From NCBI GenBank assembly GCA_937904325.1, contig CALGTK010000376.1, forward strand, positions 46,871 through 110,870: 64,000 bases of DNA, written 5' to 3'. The translations under genes were made by a program, and so were the position numbers. The notes beneath the pieces were generated by a model. That model made no database searches, was not told the origin of the DNA, and saw only the letters and a program-made list of their open reading frames with translations. Each line of letters begins with the position of its first letter. The stretch's first letter is position 1. Positions 4,602-36,465 of this stretch are shown here, in pieces. Source of the stretch: an uncultured Planctomyces sp. Its GTDB lineage: Bacteria; Planctomycetota; Planctomycetia; Planctomycetales; Planctomycetaceae.

Positions 4602-5365
4602 TCCGTGGTTCTTTCTCTGGTCAGGCGCTCCGCCGATAGTGTGGCACCAAGTTGCAGCAACTGCCGCGCACTTTGGAAGTCTTCACCGGCCAACGCTGAA
4701 AGAACCATTGCCTCGCCCGTTGATGGATGGCTGACTTGCAACTCGCTGGCGACAAGCATTAGTCGGCGGATTCCAAACTCAGTTTCGATGAGCTGGTTCA
4801 CTCGATTATCACCGTGCTTGATGTCTCCAATGATGGGATGGGCGATGTGCTTGAGGTGTCGCCTGATCTGGTGACGCCTTCCCGTTCGCGGAGTCACCCG
4901 TAGAAACGAGAAGCGACTTGTCGGATACTTCCCCGCTGAGATTGGCAACTCCGATCTCGCCAACGTTTCAAACTCCGTGATCGCTGCCTTCGCCGGCTTG
5001 TCTGCAGCGGTCTCCACCGGCGTCGCAATTCTGTCGTACGGTTCTTTAAGCGGCATGTCGATCGTGCCGGTGTCATCCGTATAGCCACGAACAATCGCGT
5101 GGTAAGTCTTTGCGACTTCCCGCCGCTCAAACTGAGTCGTCAGTACTCGAGCCGCATCGGAATTTAACCCAAAGATCAGAACTCCCGACGTTGCCCGATC
5201 AAGTCGATGGACTGTGAAAACTCGTTGGCCGAGTTGCCGGCCCAGCGTCCGTACAACGTTTTCCCTCTCGCGTGTCGCGACAAAACTTCGATGTACAAGC
5301 AGGTCCGGCGGCTTGTTAACAGCCACGCATTTGTCGTCGAGATATAGAATCTCAAGTTCGTTCAT
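4589..5365 (-). CDS. RluA/TruC family tRNA/rRNA pseudouridine synthase
   Basis: HRLDRATSGVLIFG catalytic motif; N-terminus MNELEILYLDDKCVAVNKPPDLLVHRS typical of TruC-like enzymes. Confidence 0.9.
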   Translation of the reverse strand: MNELEILYLDDKCVAVNKPPDLLVHRSFVATRERENVVRTLGRQLGQRVFTVHRLDRATSGVLIFGLNSDAARVLTTQFERREVAKTYHAIVRGYTDDTGTIDMPLKEPYDRIATPVETAADKPAKAAITEFETLARSELPISAGKYPTSRFSFLRVTPRTGRRHQIRRHLKHIAHPIIGDIKHGDNRVNQLIETEFGIRRLMLVASELQVSHPSTGEAMVLSALAGEDFQSARQLLQLGATLSAERLTRERTTDQRE

Positions 5366-5973
5366 AACGCACAGGAGCGGCCTGGCCGCGAGGTTAGATC
5401 ACAAATTGAGCCGCACTCTAACGACCGCAGAGAAAATCGGCAGCGAACAGGATCCATTCTCCTTTTGAGATCCTACTTGTTTCAGCCGAAGATCTTCATA
5501 ACCGCCCTGCGAAGACTTTCGTGGACGCACTCAAATATCCAGTTTCGACGAGTCCTGATCAACTGCTGACCGAATAATTTATTCCATGCATCCAGCACCG
5601 CACGCGCCACGGCCCACCGACGCCGAACTGGAAAATCTGCGAACCCTTGTGCCCCTTCAGACTGAGCACCGTCCGATACATCCATGATGAACTGAGTCAA
5701 CACGCGACGTCGTCTACACACCATACAGAAGCACATGCAAATCATGACCGACAAGACGTTGCTGATCCGCGACGAGTCAGCACAATCGCACATTTATCGA
5801 GTAAAGCAGAAGTAAACAGTGACTCAGAAACAGAGAGTGCAGGGTCTGATTTCGCGAGCGTTCGGAGGGCCGACCTAGAAACTGGCCATGCAGACTTTTG
5901 TTTTCAAAGAAGGCGCCTGCCCATAAAATCGCCGTTAGTCGACAGTTCCTTGACAAGATGGAAGGCGGGCCAA

Positions 5974-27019: not shown

Positions 27020-28369
27020 CTAAGCGAAGAGATCGTGGACGACGTTACCGCCCTCGGGGCCAGTGAGGCGGTGTTCGCGGCCTGCGTGCCAGTATTTGAG
27101 ATCGTTAGGAGGAAGTCCCATCAGATGCAGGATCGTGGCGTGCAGATCTCGAAAGTGTACTTTTCCTTCGACTGCTCTCGCTCCCGTCGGGTCAGTTTTT
27201 CCGTGAACATATCCTCGTTTCACTCCGCCGCCAGCCAGCCAGAAAGTGAAGCCGCGAGCGTTGTGACCCGTTTCGTTCTTACCGTCTTCCGGCGTCAGCC
27301 CCGGGCGTCCAAATTCGCCTCCCCAGACGACCAGCGTATCGTCAAGCAAACCCCGCTGTTTGAGATCACCGAGCAACGCTGCGATCGGAGCGTCCGTCAC
27401 ATGACAGTTTGCTTGCAGATCGCGGCGATGATTTTTGTGTTGATCCCAACTGCCGTGGCTAACCTCGATGAATCGAACTCCGGCTTCGGCAAATCGGCGA
27501 GCCAGTAAACACTGTCGGCCGAAGTCCGAAACCTTGCAGGTGCCCGTTGCTTTTTTCTGTTGGCCGACGCAATAAGTTTCCAGGGTCGCCTTCGATTCTG
27601 TCGATATGTCAAGCAAGTCCGGAGCGACGGACTGCATGCGGAAACCCAACTCCATCGACTGAATAACGCTTTCCAGTTTCTGGTCAGTTGGCCGTCGCTT
27701 CAGGTGACCGCGGTTCAGCATCTGTACGAAGTCAAGCTGTCGCCGCTTGGCCGACAACGGAAGATGATCGCTGCCGACGTTGCTGACCGTCGCGAGGCTC
27801 ATACTTTCGCCGTTCACGCCGATCGGAGTTCCGTTGTAAATCGACGGTAGAAACGCACTGGAGTAAATCGAACTTTTCGAAGTGTTTAGACTGATGAAGC
27901 CCGGCAGATTCTGATTCTCAGTCCCCAGCCCGTAACTGATCCACGACCCAAGACTCGGCCGTTTCCTCAATCGGTCTCCGGTGTGAAGCTGAAGAAATGA
28001 TTGCGCGTGAATTCCGGTGTCGGCATGCATTCCGTTAATCACACACAGATCGTCGGCAAACTTAGCAGTATCCGGTAGTAGTTCGGAAATACTCAGCCCG
28101 CTCTCACCATGCTGACGAAATTGGAATACCGAACCGGGATGCTTCTTCTTTCCCGTCTGCGGCTTGCAATCAAATGTGTCGAGATGAGCCGGGCCTCCGC
28201 TCATACAGAGAAAGATCACTCGCTTCGCACGAGCGGCCAGCGTCGGCGTTTGGGCCTCAAGACCACTATCCGATGCTGCCGCAACCTGTTCGCCACAAAG
28301 AGCGTTCAGGGCAAGCCCACCGAAACCGCAGGAAGTTGACTGAAGCATTGCTCGACGTGAGAAACTCAT
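27020..28369 (-). CDS. DUF1501 domain-containing protein
   Basis: [24 protein letters not shown] leader; [28 protein letters not shown]-like segment; [40 protein letters not shown]. Confidence 0.92.
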
Positions 28370-28446
28370 CTTCTGATCCCGTTCAGAGGACTGTCTATTC
28401 GAAAGTGCTTGACGGGCGCAGGAAGCTACCATCGCACCTCGGTCTA

Positions 28447-30804
28447 TCAATCGATGTAGCGAAATTCGTTCGTGACAAGCAACGCCTGACACAAACTATT
28501 CCATGCTTTGTTATCGGATCTCAGCTCAGTTTTCGTTGATCGCAGAAGTTCAATTGCCTGATCGATTTCATTTTGACTCGGGTCGCGATTCAATGCTCGA
28601 TTAAAAGCTGAACGCACTCGATGATTGTCGTCAGTTGAACCTTTCATGATCGATTGGGCAAAGTGTTCCGCCTGCTCAATCACAAATGGATTATTGAATA
28701 AATGCAGAGCCTGACCGGGGATCGTGCTGACGTCGCGTTGCCCGACGACGGTCGTGAAGTCCGGAAGGTCGAAGGCGGCCAGTTCCGGTGGCATCGAACT
28801 TCTCAAATAGCATAAGTAGACGCTGCGATGATTGCTGGGTTCGTGCAGGTTGCCAGCCAGATTCACCAGGATATCCCGATGCCTGACAATCGAACCTTCT
28901 GCCGGTTCACGATTCAACTGACCAGTTACCGCAAGCATGCTGTCCCTCAACGATTCGGCATCGAGCCTTCGCAGGCTGTGACGAGCGAGCAGCAGATTCT
29001 CAGTGTCAGCCTTTGCGAGAGATTCTTCTACATCACTGCCCAACTGGTAGGTCCGGCTAAGGACGATACTTCGAATTAGTCGCTTGATTGACCACCCGTC
29101 TTCCACAAATCGGTTTGCAAGGTGGTCGAGCATTTCGGGATGCGTCGGTCGCTCACCATAGACACCAAAGTCGTCTGGCGTCCGAACGATGCCCTGACCA
29201 AACAGGTGCAACCAGATTCGATTCACCATGACACGAGCAGTCAGAGGATGGTCCGGCCTCGTCAGCCACTGTGCGAGTTGCAACCGGCCGCTCTGCTTAG
29301 GATCGATTATTAACGACTTTGAAGCGTCAGTGTGGCACGCCGCAACGAAGCCTCGTGGCACGGCGTCACCCAGTTTCTTAGCGTCACCTTTAATGTTGAC
29401 CCTGCAGTCCGCAGGCTTGGCTTTGTCGCGGACCCCGATAGCCAGCGGAGTTCCGACTGGCCACTTTGATTTAGGAATAGGTTTGGGAATCCCCGTGTTT
29501 GATTCGAGAACCAGCACCGTCTCGACGAAACCTTCCGGCGGCAATACTTTTGGAGCAGCTTCAAGCACATGCAAATCCGTTGGTGAAGCCGTCAATTTCT
29601 CGTTAGCCGCTATGCCCCACATTGTCTCAGTGCTGGTGAAGATGCCAGCAAGCGCGTAGTAGTCGAGAGTTGGAATGGGATCGAACTTGTGATCGTGACA
29701 CCGTGCGCACGCGACGCTGATCCCCATGATTCCTGTCCCGATAACTTCGATCTGATCCGCGACGATGTCCATGTCGAAATTCGTGTTCATCGCCTTCGCC
29801 GGTTTCGATGCCATTGCAAGAAACCCAGTCGCGATAAGATACCGGTCGCGTTCGGTGGGCGAGTCGCTCGGCAAAAGATCACCAGCAATCTGCTCGGTGA
29901 GAAAATGGTCGTACGGCACGTCTCGATTAAACGCATCGATGACATAGTCGCGGTACCGCCAGGCGTGAGGGAATGTTGGATTGCGGCCTAGCCCGTCGTT
30001 GCCGTTCGATTCTCCGTAACGAGCGACGTCCAGCCAATGCCGCCCCCAACGTTCGCCGAACTGCGGCCGGGCAAGCAGATTGTCGACGAGAGTCCGTACT
30101 GCTGTCTGCCGGTCGGCTCGATACTCTTCGACAAAGGTCTCCACTTCGTCCATCAACGGCGGTAGACCGAGCAGGTCAACGTACACCCTTCGAATCAGTG
30201 TCCGCGGCTCGGCATCGTTCGTTGGGTTGATTCCTGCCGCTTCGATCCTCGCGAGCACGAAGGAATCAAGCGAGTCGCGCGGCCAGGCTTTGTTGCTAAC
30301 CTCGGGAATTGCAGATGTGCGCCGCGGCCGGAGTGACCAGAGTGGAGGTTTTTCATCGCCTGATGTAGAGGTATCGAGTGTCGGCGCGACGTCGGGACGA
30401 ACTCGCGGATCGGGGGCCCCCAACCTCACCCATTTCACAAAGTCATTGACGACGGTTTTCGGCAACGGCTTTTCCGGCGGCATTTCGATACCGTCGTAAC
30501 GCAGTGCCTGGATGATGCGGCTTTCATCCGGCTTTCCTACGGCAATTGCCGGCCCTGACTCGCCACCGTCCAAGACTCCTTCACGAGTATCCAGCAACAG
30601 CTTGCCGCCGACTTCTTCAGAGTCAGCGGAGTGGCACTCGTAACAATGCTCAACCAGGACCGGGCGGATTTTGTTTTCAAAGAATATCCGGTCTTCCGCC
30701 GAGACAGCCTGATCCATTGCAGAAATGTTGCTCGACAAGCCTGGCCCGATGGACAATCCAATCAAGACAGCAGTCACAATCTGGCTGGTCACGAAGTTAC
30801 TCAC
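28447..30804 (-). CDS. PSD1 / DUF1549 / DUF1553 domain-containing protein with planctomycete cytochrome c domain
   Basis: [112 protein letters not shown]. Confidence 0.94.
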
Positions 30805-31214: not shown

Positions 31215-32402
31215 ATGCTGCTTACACGACGTTATCTACTCGCTGCTTCTCTTTCTGCCATCACGTTGATGAATTCTCCAGTACTCAAAGCTGGTGAGAA
31301 ATTCGACATTGTCGACACAGCGGTCAAAGCTGGTTCGTTCAAAACTCTGGCAGCCGCCCTCGATGCAGCCGAGCTGATCGGCGTTTTGAAAGGGAAAGGT
31401 CCGTTCACGGTCTTTGCCCCCACCGACGACGCGTTCTCCAAACTGCCTGAGGGTACTGTTGAATCGCTGCTCGAACCGGGGTCAAAGCGAACTTTGGGAA
31501 ACATTCTGAAGTATCACGTCGTGGCGGGGGCCGTGACGTCTGATCAAGTAGTTAAAATTTCAAACGCGACAACTTTGAACGGTCAAAGAGTAGACATCGC
31601 TGCGAAGAATGGAATTGTCACTGTCGACGGAGCCAAGGTAGTAACCGTCGACATTAAATGCTCAAACGGAATAATTCATGTCATCGATTCCGTAATTCTT
31701 CCATCCTCAAAGAACATCCCAGCAACAGCGGACGAGGCAGGTCAATTCAAGACTCTGTTAGCTGCTGCAAAGGCTACAAAACTTGTAGCGGCGTTAAGTG
31801 GTAACAAGCCATTAACCGTGTTTGCACCATCTGACGATGCCTTCGCTCGTCTGCCAAACGGAACCGTTGAGAGCCTTCTCAAGCCCGAAAATCTGGATCA
31901 GCTCAAACAAATCCTGCTCTACCACGTTGTAGAAGGGCGAGTTTACTCAGAGCAGGCCTTGAAACTGGACGAAGCCATGACGCTCGGAGGAAAATCAATC
32001 CAGATCAGTTCAAGGAAGGGTGGAGCCTTCATTAACGAATCGAAACTGACTGCTCTCGACGTTGAAGCATCGAATGGTGTTATTCACGTCATCGACAGAG
32101 TGCTCATGCCGCCGAAGTCAAAAAAAGTCTCGCAGGCCGCCACTCAGAAGGCGATCGAGCATACAATTCATCGAGGCACAGCTCTTTACAATGCAGGGCA
32201 TGCTGACGCCTGTGCATCGCTCTACATGAAATCGGTTGCTGGACTGCTCAGTGGAGAACATCAATTGCCTGAATCAGCTCATCACCATCTCACAATGGCA
32301 ATTAATAAAGCAAAAGCAACTTCCTGTTCGACGACGCGAAGCTGGGCTCTTCGAAAGGGACTGGATGGAGCCTATCGATCAATGATGGTCAGCGTTCGGT
32401 AA
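31215..32402 (+). CDS. Secreted fasciclin protein (two FAS1 domains)
   Basis: Repeated [23 protein letters not shown] / [23 protein letters not shown] and (A/L)[17 protein letters not shown] / [13 protein letters not shown]. Confidence 0.95.
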
Positions 32403-32512: not shown

Positions 32513-33406
32513 TCAAGTCTCCGCTCTTGGCGGTGTTGGAATTCCAGGAACCGGATTCAGCGATCGTGCGAATCGCTCGAAGTCTCGGAACGTCTCACAA
32601 AAGACTGAATATTGGATCTGACGTCGAATATTTTCACTAAGAGCCCGACCACCGACAGCCATGGCTGCATTGCAGCCATGAGCGACACTAAATAATTGAT
32701 TGACACCGTTAATGAAGGTTGCATCATCGACAACGTGGGAAACGCTGAGCCAGAAGAGACGCGGCCGTGCGGTTTCAATCGCTTCGCAAAGTGTGTCAAA
32801 CGGTAAGTTAGTTCCCAGCAGAGTCGTCTTCCAGCCGACGGTCCGAAGTACAACTTCAGACATGGTGAGCGGCAATGTGTAGATGTCTGCTTCAACCGTT
32901 GCACCAACAGCGAGCGGCTGGTCGTCAGCTACTGTAGTGGACGCTCTCAGCTCATGAAGACATCGCATGCAGATTTCGCATGCCCGCCGTTCCTGGTAAA
33001 CGGCAACTTCTCCACAACTCCACTGTTCGCCGATCCGGTGTAATGCTGGAGCGAGTACATCATCAAAAATTGCAGTGACGGAATGATCTGCCAGTAGTAG
33101 ATCAAAAACGATCTGACGAACAACGGACTCTTCGCCCGACACCAGGCTCGCCACAAGGCGATCAACGGCGCGTACAAGGGTCCATTCGGTTTTCCCTGCG
33201 GTCACGGGGAGATTAAGCAATTCCGGCTCGACAACCTGACGGCCCGTTTCCCGCAAGAATTTGATAACTGCGGCGACTTCGATTCGTCGATGGCCACCCA
33301 CCGTCTTCGTCATTGGGATCAGACCGTCATCGCACCATCGTTTCAACGTTGATTCGCTGACGCCGATGGCTCGAGCAACCTGCTTTGGAGATGCGTTTTT
33401 CTGCAT
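32513..33406 (-). CDS. MerR-type HTH + cobalamin-binding-fold regulator (CarH/LitR-like) with substituted B12-ligand motif
   Basis: N-term ARAIGVSESTLKRWCDDGLIPMTKTVGGHRRI; helical domain HRIGEQWSCGEVAVYQERRACEICMRCLHELR; Rossmann part VEADIYTLPLTMSEVVLRTVGWKTTLLGTNLPFDTL. Confidence 0.85.
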   Translation of the reverse strand: MQKNASPKQVARAIGVSESTLKRWCDDGLIPMTKTVGGHRRIEVAAVIKFLRETGRQVVEPELLNLPVTAGKTEWTLVRAVDRLVASLVSGEESVVRQIVFDLLLADHSVTAIFDDVLAPALHRIGEQWSCGEVAVYQERRACEICMRCLHELRASTTVADDQPLAVGATVEADIYTLPLTMSEVVLRTVGWKTTLLGTNLPFDTLCEAIETARPRLFWLSVSHVVDDATFINGVNQLFSVAHGCNAAMAVGGRALSENIRRQIQYSVFCETFRDFERFARSLNPVPGIPTPPRAET

Positions 33407-33751: not shown

Positions 33752-34291
33752 TCATTTCGACGTGCATGCCATCTGCCCCGTATCCTCACAGGAATCGACG
33801 GCAGCGCGGCGGATTTCAATTGGCTCAAACCGGCAGCCCGAAGACTCGATTCCAAGCAGGTCCGGTAGCCTCTTCTGCCTGTATTCAAAAATGCGTTGCA
33901 GATCGCGTTTCACACAGAGCCGATGCACCAGAGCTCCGCCGATTGCTGAGTACCGCACCGCATCGCACATCAACGTGCCGCCGTCAATCTCAGTAAAAGT
34001 GTGCGTGTGCACCCACATCGAATACGGCCCTCGGACTTGCGAATCCTCAAATCGAGCCGGCGGTTCCCAGTTCGTGATCCGGGTTTGCCATCGAATTGGA
34101 AATCCGTGCAGTCGGAGCTTGTAGTCAATCAGCCGCCCGACACTCATTTCGATAGGGGGCGGAGTGACCACTGCGAATCCGAGAAAAGGTGGTGTCATCG
34201 GTTCCAGCTTAAATGCATCAGAAAACAGTTCGAACACATTTAAACGATTAACTGGCACCCAGACGCTGGTTTTCAACTCGTAGTGACTCAT
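33752..34291 (-). CDS. SRPBCC family (START/polyketide-cyclase fold) protein
   Basis: MSHYELKTSVWVPVNRLNVFELFSDAFKLEPMTPPFLGF...LRLHGFPIRWQTRITNWEPPARFEDSQVRGPYSMWVHTHTFTEIDGGTLMCDAVRYS. Confidence 0.85.
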   Translation of the reverse strand: MSHYELKTSVWVPVNRLNVFELFSDAFKLEPMTPPFLGFAVVTPPPIEMSVGRLIDYKLRLHGFPIRWQTRITNWEPPARFEDSQVRGPYSMWVHTHTFTEIDGGTLMCDAVRYSAIGGALVHRLCVKRDLQRIFEYRQKRLPDLLGIESSGCRFEPIEIRRAAVDSCEDTGQMACTSK

Positions 34292-34308
34292 TTTATATAT
34301 TTCCTGGT

Positions 34309-34359
34309 GAATAGTGGACGTTTTGACTGTTTTACTGTTATACATCCGAATAATGGACG
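34309..34359. promoter_or_regulatory. Pair of near-identical direct repeats GAATAGTGGACG / GAATAATGGACG in the divergent SRPBCC-sigma intergenic region
   Basis: 34309-34320 gaatagtggacg and 34348-34359 gaataatggacg, one mismatch, starts 39 bp apart. Confidence 0.4.
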
Positions 34360-34419: not shown

Positions 34420-35343
34420 ATGCTCAATCAAGTAGCTCCGCAATCACCCAGTTCACGAGGCAAGACCAGCGACACAGCACTGGCTGCGATCCAGTTCATA
34501 CCGAATGAATCCTTCGAATCCACGACCGAAAATGACCTGCTGGACGTCGACGTAAATCTATACAAAACGGAGGAAACCGCCGCGGGAGCACTCGATCCTG
34601 ACTCGGTCGCGTCCTCGTTGCTCACGGCGTTGCAGCGCAGTCGCCTGCTGACTTTTGAAGGTGAACAGCTTCTATTCAAGCGACTTAACTTCCTGAGGTT
34701 CCGAGCCAATGCAATTCAGATTTCGATCAATCCGAAGAGGCCATCGAAAAGGAAGCTGGCAGAGCTTGAACGCCTACTTGCCGAGGTAAAGTCTGTTCGA
34801 GACGATCTTGCGGAAGCCAACCTCAGGCTCGTCGCCTCGATCGCGGGCAAACTCGCAATGTCACGCGAAGAGTTCGACGAGTTCTTCGCAGAAGGAAACG
34901 GAATTCTTCTCTACGCGATCGACAAGTTCGACTTTTCCCGAGGTTATCGGTTCAGCACTTACGTGACCCACGCGGTCCAGCGGCATCTCTACCGCTTCAT
35001 TGACCGACGGAAGAAGCGTTCCGGGCGTGAGTTTGCCCGCGAGCCGGAAATCCTGATGAATGAAGTAACAGTCGCCCCAAATCCTGACGTGATCTCGGAC
35101 GACGAAGTTAAAGAAGCAGCCGCGGCCGTGATTTCCAAAATCGACCTGGCGCTGGACGAGCGGGAAAGCTTTATCATCCGGGGGCGTTTCGGACTCGATG
35201 GAACCGGAAAAGGAAAGACTTACAGCTGCCTTGGAGAGCAGCTTGGTCTCAGCAAGGAACGAGTACGACAACTGTTTCAGAGAGCTATCGAAAAGCTGGG
35301 CGAAGTCGCGAAACCCTTCGAATCGACCTTGGCCCCCATGTAA
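34420..35343 (+). CDS. Sigma-70 family RNA polymerase sigma factor
   Basis: Region 2 LAEANLRLVASIAGK...GNGILLYAIDKFDFSRGYRFSTYVTHAVQRHLYRFI; region 4 LDERESFIIRGRFGLDG...CLGEQLGLSKERVRQLFQRAIEKL. Confidence 0.92.
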   Translation: MLNQVAPQSPSSRGKTSDTALAAIQFIPNESFESTTENDLLDVDVNLYKTEETAAGALDPDSVASSLLTALQRSRLLTFEGEQLLFKRLNFLRFRANAIQISINPKRPSKRKLAELERLLAEVKSVRDDLAEANLRLVASIAGKLAMSREEFDEFFAEGNGILLYAIDKFDFSRGYRFSTYVTHAVQRHLYRFIDRRKKRSGREFAREPEILMNEVTVAPNPDVISDDEVKEAAAAVISKIDLALDERESFIIRGRFGLDGTGKGKTYSCLGEQLGLSKERVRQLFQRAIEKLGEVAKPFESTLAPM

Positions 35344-35493: not shown

Positions 35494-36465
35494 TTGACAA
35501 ACGACCTTCGACCCCGTCGGTGGATGGGCATCGTTCTACTGTTGGCCGGACTATATAATCTCGTCTGGGGTGCCGTCTGTATCGCGTTTCCGATAGCGAC
35601 TCTCGAGTTGCTCGGAGTTGAGCCCCGCCCAACGGTGCCACAACTGTGGCAGTGTATCGGAATGATTGTTGGCGTTTACGGATTGGGATATCTGATCGCT
35701 TCCCGAGACCCATTTCGTCACTGGCCGATCACGCTGACAGGATTGCTTGGCAAGGTGTTCGGTCCAGTCGGATTTTTCATTGCCGTTTCTTCAGATCAAC
35801 TCCCCATGTCGATGGGTTGGACGATCCTGACAAACGATCTTATCTGGTGGCTGCCATTCTCTGGAATTCTGTGGGGCGCGATCCGCCAGCATGAAAGTCT
35901 TGGCTCGGCATACGTCATGCCTGAGTCGGATGCACCGCTGATGGACCTTCGGTCGAATCGCGGTGAGAAGCTGGACGAACTGGCTGATCCTCAACCGCAA
36001 CTGGTCGTCTTTCTGAGACACGCCGGATGCACGTTCTGCCGCGAAGCACTGGCCGATATCGCCGAACAGCGAGAGCAGATCGAGTCAGATGGATGTGGAA
36101 TCGTCCTGATACATATGGGTGAGAACGACCGGGATGAAGTCTTCTTTGCCAACTACGACCTGGACGACCTGCCCCGGTTTTCTGATCCAGAATGTCGACT
36201 CTACCGACAGTTCGGGCTCGACATGGGCGGCTTTACTGAACTGCTTGGACCGATGGTATGGTTGCGTGGCTTCATGGCCGCGTTCATAAATGGGCATGGC
36301 GTTGGACGACTGAGAGGCAACGGGTTTCAAATGCCTGGAGTTTACGTCTATCACTGCGGGCAAATTCTTGGCGGCTTTCAACACGCTCGGGCGTCGGATC
36401 GCCCCGACTATGCCGCGCTCGCCAACGCTTTATCGGAACCTGAGCGAGTCCCCGTTGTCATTTGA
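35494..36465 (+). CDS. Membrane-anchored SelL-related / AhpC-TSA-like redox protein (TTG start)
   Basis: N-terminal TM helices (GIVLLLAGLYNLVWGAVCIAFPI) fused to LVVFLRHAGCTFCREALADIAEQREQI...GRLRGNGFQMPGVYVYHCGQILGGFQHARASDRPDY. Confidence 0.8.
   Translation: MTNDLRPRRWMGIVLLLAGLYNLVWGAVCIAFPIATLELLGVEPRPTVPQLWQCIGMIVGVYGLGYLIASRDPFRHWPITLTGLLGKVFGPVGFFIAVSSDQLPMSMGWTILTNDLIWWLPFSGILWGAIRQHESLGSAYVMPESDAPLMDLRSNRGEKLDELADPQPQLVVFLRHAGCTFCREALADIAEQREQIESDGCGIVLIHMGENDRDEVFFANYDLDDLPRFSDPECRLYRQFGLDMGGFTELLGPMVWLRGFMAAFINGHGVGRLRGNGFQMPGVYVYHCGQILGGFQHARASDRPDYAALANALSEPERVPVVI

Follow-up and report, generated by a model that had tools for sequence, protein, structure and literature searches.

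A planctomycete CarH/LitR-like MerR regulator with a conserved tyrosine in place of the axial histidine

Introduction

Known CarH photochemistry centres on cobalt ligated by histidine, and a CarH-like regulator from which that histidine is missing raises the question of what, if anything, its sensor domain still binds. A regulator of this kind is encoded on a contig of an uncultured Planctomyces sp. (CALGTK010000376.1), of which a 64,000-nt stretch, referred to hereafter as the window, was analysed. An initial annotation, made by reading the sequence alone, had described the protein as a CarH/LitR-like MerR regulator that appeared to have lost its cobalamin ligand, and from this had proposed that it is B12-independent, comparable in principle to CarA-type paralogues, or senses another ligand. 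The literature that we searched yielded no paper connecting planctomycetes with CarH/LitR, although such papers may exist elsewhere, and none on light or photo-oxidative-stress regulation in planctomycetes. The reading that we favour, and to which we give a probability of roughly one half, is that the protein belongs to a group of CarH/LitR-type MerR repressors of photo-stress genes that is spread across the Planctomycetota and has a remodelled, still selected pocket. That is, the regulator probably still controls light-damage genes, but unlike the known B12 light sensors.

Results

Architecture of the regulator

The MerR-family ORF was confirmed at positions 32513-33406 of the window (minus strand). 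It encodes 297 aa from an ATG start that is in register with the orthologues (MxxLxSPKQVARAIGVSES). The N-terminal helix-turn-helix (HTH) domain (residues 5-53; 33248-33394, minus strand) matches Pfam HTH_17/MerR at 1.7e-10 and is BldC-like, matching NCBIfam HTH_BldC at 1.6e-8, under the family cut-off. It is followed by a four-helix B12-binding_2-like subdomain (residues 74-156; 32939-33187, minus strand), recognized by Pfam at 1.9e-12 and by the helices of an AlphaFold2 (AF2) model, and by a Rossmann B12-binding-like subdomain (residues 165-284; 32555-32914, minus strand), which is seen in the AF2 model and matched by Pfam at 3.2e-4, below the cut-off, while the same domain is matched in 60 of 68 relatives. 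The model (pLDDT 89.4, pTM 0.75) is most similar to the AdoCbl-bound cobalamin domain of CtMerR (TM 0.87 of target, rmsd 2.0 A), and next resembles photocobilins and CarH. The succession of MerR-type HTH, four-helix bundle and Rossmann sensor is that of the broad CarH/LitR kind by Pfam, AF2 and Foldseek, which bears out the first part of the initial annotation. The regulator is present as a single copy in its genome, the other three matches having E values of at least 0.2.

Axial position and cobalamin motifs

In the AF2 model, the loop that follows Rossmann strand 1, which holds DxHxxG in B12 proteins, is occupied by DIYTLP (residues 174-179; 32870-32887, minus strand). Profile alignments to CtMerR (GDLHEI), the photocobilins SasPcob (GEWHAL) and AbDPcob (GDWHSL) and the corrinoid protein MttC (GDIHSI) put Tyr176 (codon 32879-32881) in the axial-His column. 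No alternative His aligned in the ligand column, the partly conserved His residues at 108, 123 and 151 being outside the motif. In the helical subdomain, Trp129 of the Wx9E(H/R) motif (33020-33022, minus strand) is kept at a spacing of exactly x9 from Glu139-Arg140 (32987-32992, minus strand), a pair that stands instead of the Glu-His of CarH and in which Arg is found in all members of the window's clade and His in the sister clade. Thus, the axial His to Tyr and EH to ER replacements and the retention of Trp, all previously read by eye, were recovered from the DNA and from the profile alignments, and loss of the His ligand is supported at the sequence level. The change of Gly to Pro, also taken as a loss, is uninformative: D/ExHx2G/P is the form of the motif in functional CarH-type proteins, and SasPcob, a photocobilin that binds AdoCbl, has EWHALP, so that Pro179 is not a lost residue.

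Taken as a whole, the Rossmann motif of the window protein reads DxYx2P-x41-SxS-x28-GG (S221-x-S223, then GG252-253), against D/ExHx2G/Px41SxT/Vx22-27GG in myxobacterial CarH and CarA (PMC9304148). Asp, Pro, Ser and GG are kept and His is replaced by Tyr, just as Trp129 and Glu139 of Wx9EH are kept and His is replaced by Arg140 throughout the clade. With the CarH equivalog model NCBIfam NF052513 the protein scores 41.3 bits, the cut-off being 400 bits. As to the signature of light-responsive cobalamin-binding domains (PMC11796333), GxxW and GxxxP are present (G126/W129 and G198/P202, all invariant in the window's clade), whereas ER and AxxY occur in place of EH and GxxH.

Conservation across the Planctomycetota

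Relatives were found in 104 of the 150 genomes of a family-level sample and, at E<=1e-12, in 163 of the 392 genomes of a phylum-level sample; weaker matches include other B12-domain proteins. Among cultured relatives, Lacipirellula limnantheis and Adhaeretor mobilis encode orthologues. Tyr occupies the axial column in 159 of 178 distinct sequences. When the family is split by residue 140, Tyr is found in 122 of the 126 sequences of the ER group, the window's clade, and in 36 of the 48 of its sister EH group, which is spread over the Planctomycetota and otherwise shows H, S, G, D, F, T or N. The check proposed earlier, namely whether the Tyr substitution is conserved in planctomycete orthologues, therefore gave a positive answer in both groups, and on these alignments the substitution is a conserved feature, not decay. 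Tyr176 did not covary with Ser221 within the EH clade (p=1).

A quick tree separates the Tyr-type family from CtMerR and the four true DxH/ExH relatives in planctomycetes (SH-aLRT 97). This topology suggests a single His-to-Tyr change at the base, with EH giving way to ER on a subsequent branch (support 83) and a few later changes of the Tyr, the details being unsure because of long branches.

Several loci showed individual variations. A divergent subgroup (L049, L050 and L051, from genomes G013, G007 and G061) retains neither the Trp and Glu nor the Asp/Tyr motif (e.g. GYEVDSLP), and from its sequences the pocket there really looks degraded. One locus carries side-by-side copies, the second of which is degenerate, with Asp in the axial column and the Trp lost (L047:4742-6743), and another carries two intact copies facing apart (L222:3947-5817). 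Three genomes of the window's genus (G073, G094 and G107) encode at least two Tyr-type regulators, each near its own sigma gene, and the window genome encodes one.

Gene neighbourhood

Immediately upstream of the regulator and on the same strand lies a gene for an SRPBCC-like protein (33752-34345, minus strand), a recurrent neighbour that matches 3oh8 at E=0.0014 and whose orthologues match Polyketide_cyc. Its start is probably at 34291 (MSHYELK) and not at the first ATG, 34345, a start that would place the candidate operator described below inside the gene. Next comes a divergent gene for a sigma-70-type factor (34420-35343, plus strand; Pfam Sigma70_r2 and r4), which is a recurrent partner, and on the other side a convergent gene for a two-domain fasciclin protein (31215-32402, plus strand; Pfam 1.1e-75). 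In relatives, fasciclin genes recur near the regulator and also behind the operator motif. This link is not confined to planctomycetes, since an unannotated related frame on Rhizobium sp. TH2 plasmid pTH2c (L266, approximately 5001-5573), with a canonical His in ERHQLG, also adjoins a fasciclin gene.

By ORF clustering, the recurrent neighbours are the sigma factor, SRPBCC, an amine-oxidase-like FAD protein (FAD oxidoreductase), DUF1365 and a CMAS-type methyltransferase, and further photolyase, TspO, an NmrA/DUF2867 protein, fasciclin and glyoxalase; the recurrences are raw counts, not enrichments over background, and with many of the loci being short they are minimum values. No conspicuous photoreceptor gene was seen among these neighbours. 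We read the set of FAD oxidoreductase-DUF1365-CMAS, photolyase, TspO, fasciclin, SRPBCC and sigma factor as a photo-oxidative-stress neighbourhood. In the window genome, the assembly of which is estimated to be 99.9% complete, DUF1365 is on a different contig, and a search for the photolyase/cryptochrome FAD domain PF03441 found none.

Two further features were seen around the locus. Downstream of the sigma factor, 35494-36465 encodes a protein that has a membrane part at its N-terminus and also an AhpC/TSA-like domain; it keeps this place in several same-genus loci. Beside the fasciclin gene, 27020-30804 holds a planctomycete cytochrome gene (PSCyt1/2, PSD1) and a DUF1501 gene, a pair that stays near the regulator in some loci of the genus.

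A conserved direct repeat as candidate operator

Enrichment of word pairs upstream of the sigma and fasciclin genes pointed to GAAC-N5-GAAC, and the conserved candidate operator of the family is a 9-bp direct repeat, TGAACGATTTGAACG, the full motif being TGAACG(A/T)TTTGAACG(A/T)WTTT. The exact form TGAACG-N3-TGAACG has 59 sites in 177 loci, most of them within about 200 bp of the regulator ORF start, and a relaxed pattern occurs at 0.70 sites per kb near that start versus 0.015 per kb elsewhere. The motif is present in both the ER and EH groups. Thirteen whole genomes contain between 0 and 4 perfect sites each, and none with the reversed control; of those not near the regulator, three are located ahead of fasciclin genes and the others have no clear gene.

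In the window, the best match to the family motif across all 64 kb is a drifted pair of 9-bp direct repeats, TGGACGTTT-TGACTGTTT, at 34311-34336 (plus strand), between the SRPBCC and sigma factor genes. The motif has drifted to about TGRACGTTTTGRATGTTTTT in the window's genus, and in the majority of the same-genus and near loci, too, the best site falls in the corresponding promoter region. A search of the 7.97-Mb genome with this genus form gave a single match, at 34315-34334; it is the uniqueness of the site, not its presence, that counts as evidence, as the pattern was written after the site was seen. The Pseudomonas-type operator TRTACA-N12-TRTAYA was absent from the upstream regions. We ascribe the motif to the regulator because it lies at the regulator's promoter even where no sigma gene is recognized (e.g. 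locus L089), and because direct repeats are suited to recognition by a BldC-like HTH. Alternatively, the motif could act as a sigma-factor promoter element.

Selection on the pocket

In an alignment of 68 sequences of the window's clade, the invariant residues of the sensor are D115, G126, W129, E139, R140, A166, D174, Y176, G198, P202, S221, G252 and G253. Eleven of these 13 fall within the 14 cobalamin-signature positions known from the literature (GxxW, EH, G/DxH, G/P, GxxxP, SxT and GG, with the two substituted ones counted by column; hypergeometric p=3.9e-14). Hardly any sensor residue outside the signature positions is invariant, which is unlike a discarded pocket, and the best reading of the alignment is that the pocket has been remodelled and is under continued selection. 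The initial claim of a lost ligand with B12-independence as its consequence thus stands for the His ligand but not, as stated, for B12-independence.

B12-independence might take a form similar to that of CarA or class II LitR, in which the sensor would only oligomerise and an antirepressor or a separate photoreceptor would strip the protein off DNA. Both the axial His and the His of the EH pair are indeed replaced, and there are precedents in CarA (PMC9304148) and in the class II LitR/short LOV system of Pseudomonas, which has a similar gene cluster (PMC9758184). This explanation is possible, but we hold it to be the less probable side of the question: besides the near-exclusive invariance of the signature positions, in CarA it is the Trp that is lost and the His that is kept, the reverse of what is seen in the window family; class II LitR has no recognizable Rossmann motif, whereas that of the window protein is intact; and no photoreceptor gene is conspicuous among the recurrent neighbours.

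The window's clade is further marked by Cys131 (33014-33016, minus strand; 83% of the clade, absent among the common letters of the sister clade), Cys143 (32978-32980, minus strand; 94%, not in the sister clade) and Cys270 (32597-32599, minus strand; 88%), and, besides Arg140, the ER group has Cys25 (95%) and Tyr137 (91%). None of these five residues is a common letter in the EH group or in CtMerR. Cys131 and Cys143 are close in sequence to Trp129, Glu139 and Arg140, which correspond to adenosyl-facing positions in CarH. A thiol or redox switch on a CarH scaffold, in which Cys131, Cys143 and Cys270 would sense singlet oxygen or peroxides by the old adenosyl face of an empty or structural pocket, would be in keeping with this clade-specific conservation (83-95% for the four cysteines) and with the photo-oxidative neighbours. 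It is nevertheless unlikely, for the cysteines are confined to the ER clade, and the EH clade has the Tyr change, the neighbourhood and the motif without them; moreover, 17% of the ER clade lacks Cys131 itself.

For a pocket holding another tetrapyrrole, such as heme, through Tyr176 there are parallels in the tyrosine ligands of known heme proteins and in AppA, whose B12-like SCHIC domain binds heme; the Ser and GG residues tied to the cobalamin tail are kept, however, and we regard this alternative as improbable. The missing His and the Pfam B12-binding score below the cut-off might speak for neutral decay, in a single genome, of a cobalamin pocket that is not used, but this is hardly credible given the same Tyr and ER in more than 100 relatives with an intact pocket signature.

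Discussion

Ligand and mode of action

Under the preferred reading, that of a repressor with a remodelled but selected pocket, we infer the following mode of action. The HTH would bind head-to-tail 9-bp direct repeats of the TGAACGATT type at promoters of its own cluster, and in the window the bound promoter would be that of SRPBCC and the sigma factor. The sensor keeps the CarH fold and the cobalamin-pocket residues with a conserved Tyr for the lower axial His and, in the window's clade, an Arg for the upper-face His, with cysteines nearby. It would respond to a ligand in the pocket, most likely cobalamin without His coordination, either Tyr-on or free of any protein ligand. Under light or photo-oxidative stress the assembly would change, and repression of the sigma factor and photo-protection genes would be released.

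With regard to the ligand, the equivalents of His142 and His177 are both absent. HaAI-2E, with a naturally occurring Arg in the axial column, binds hydroxocobalamin alone, and neither AdoCbl nor MeCbl (PMC11796333), which, with both His gone here, counts against classical AdoCbl photochemistry. The CarA precedent also means that a retained B12 motif is no proof of B12 dependence. Among the pocket residues, Asp174, Tyr176 and Ser221 stand where MetH has its Asp-His-Ser ligand triad, and Tyr176 as a ligand or hydrogen-bond partner would fit this arrangement. A pocket needing no protein ligand would fit as well, since the Ser, Gly, Phe and Thr variants of the EH group retain Trp, Glu and GG. The window genome encodes MetH and a PduO-type adenosyltransferase, so that AdoCbl should be available, given a corrinoid. 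Co-occurrence with adenosyltransferases was also considered as a B12 test; of the 80 family-bearing genomes, 77 have PF01923 and 78 have either type, but this does not discriminate, as approximately 94% of the remaining genomes carry one too.

More tentatively, the changes may have been stepwise, with a phylum-wide His to Tyr replacement followed in one clade by His to Arg and the cysteines, giving a photo-oxidative-stress sensor that would work through non-His-ligated cobalamin or a nearby thiol. Such sensing chemistry has not been described for the CarH/LitR family in the literature that we searched. A family with Tyr for His would test the weight of the axial ligand, its natural variants (His, Tyr, Ser, Gly and Phe) are a resource for B12 chemistry and optogenetics, and it opens up the regulation of light and photo-oxidative-stress responses in planctomycetes. 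The predicted operator makes the idea directly testable.

Comparison with known systems

CarA of Myxococcus xanthus is comparable in being a CarH relative missing part of the AdoCbl machinery. CarA, though, keeps the His motif and EH and is without the Trp (PMC9304148), whereas the window family shows the opposite pattern, retaining the Trp without either His, and the window genome has no CarH sibling. The comparison with CarA made in the initial annotation therefore fails, and a CarA-like paralogue was ruled out by the single copy together with the opposite residue pattern.

The class II LitR proteins of Pseudomonas (PmlR/PplR), judged unable to bind B12, are encoded near PhrB, SDR, FAD oxidoreductase and UfaM genes (PMC9758184), and the neighbours of the window family resemble these PhrB/FAD oxidoreductase/UfaM surroundings. 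Only the helical bundle is recognizable in those proteins, however, whereas the Rossmann fold, motif spacing, Ser and GG are intact in the window protein, and the short LOV partner found there was not noticed among the recurrent neighbours here.

CarH itself (Thermus thermophilus, 5c8d, and myxobacteria) shares three domains with the window protein, the MerR HTH, the four-helix bundle and the Rossmann sensor, as well as Wx9E and the spacing of the motif. It differs in that both key His are replaced in the window protein, in the recognition helix (KRWCDDG versus RxWERRY in CarH) and in the predicted operator of 9-bp direct repeats.

Among relatives of solved structure, the nearest is CtMerR of Chloracidobacterium thermophilum (8jbs/8jbt; phmmer 2e-25, profile 8e-46), an AdoCbl light-responsive MerR protein that senses green light (PMC11796333). 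The two have the same architecture, are alignable end to end including the BldC-like HTH region, and have the GxxW, Glu, GxxxP, Ser and GG positions in common, but CtMerR has EH and the axial His204 where the window protein has ER and Tyr. Judged by these sequence features, the window protein is outside the strict definitions of CarH, CarA and class II LitR, and CtMerR is its closest known counterpart.
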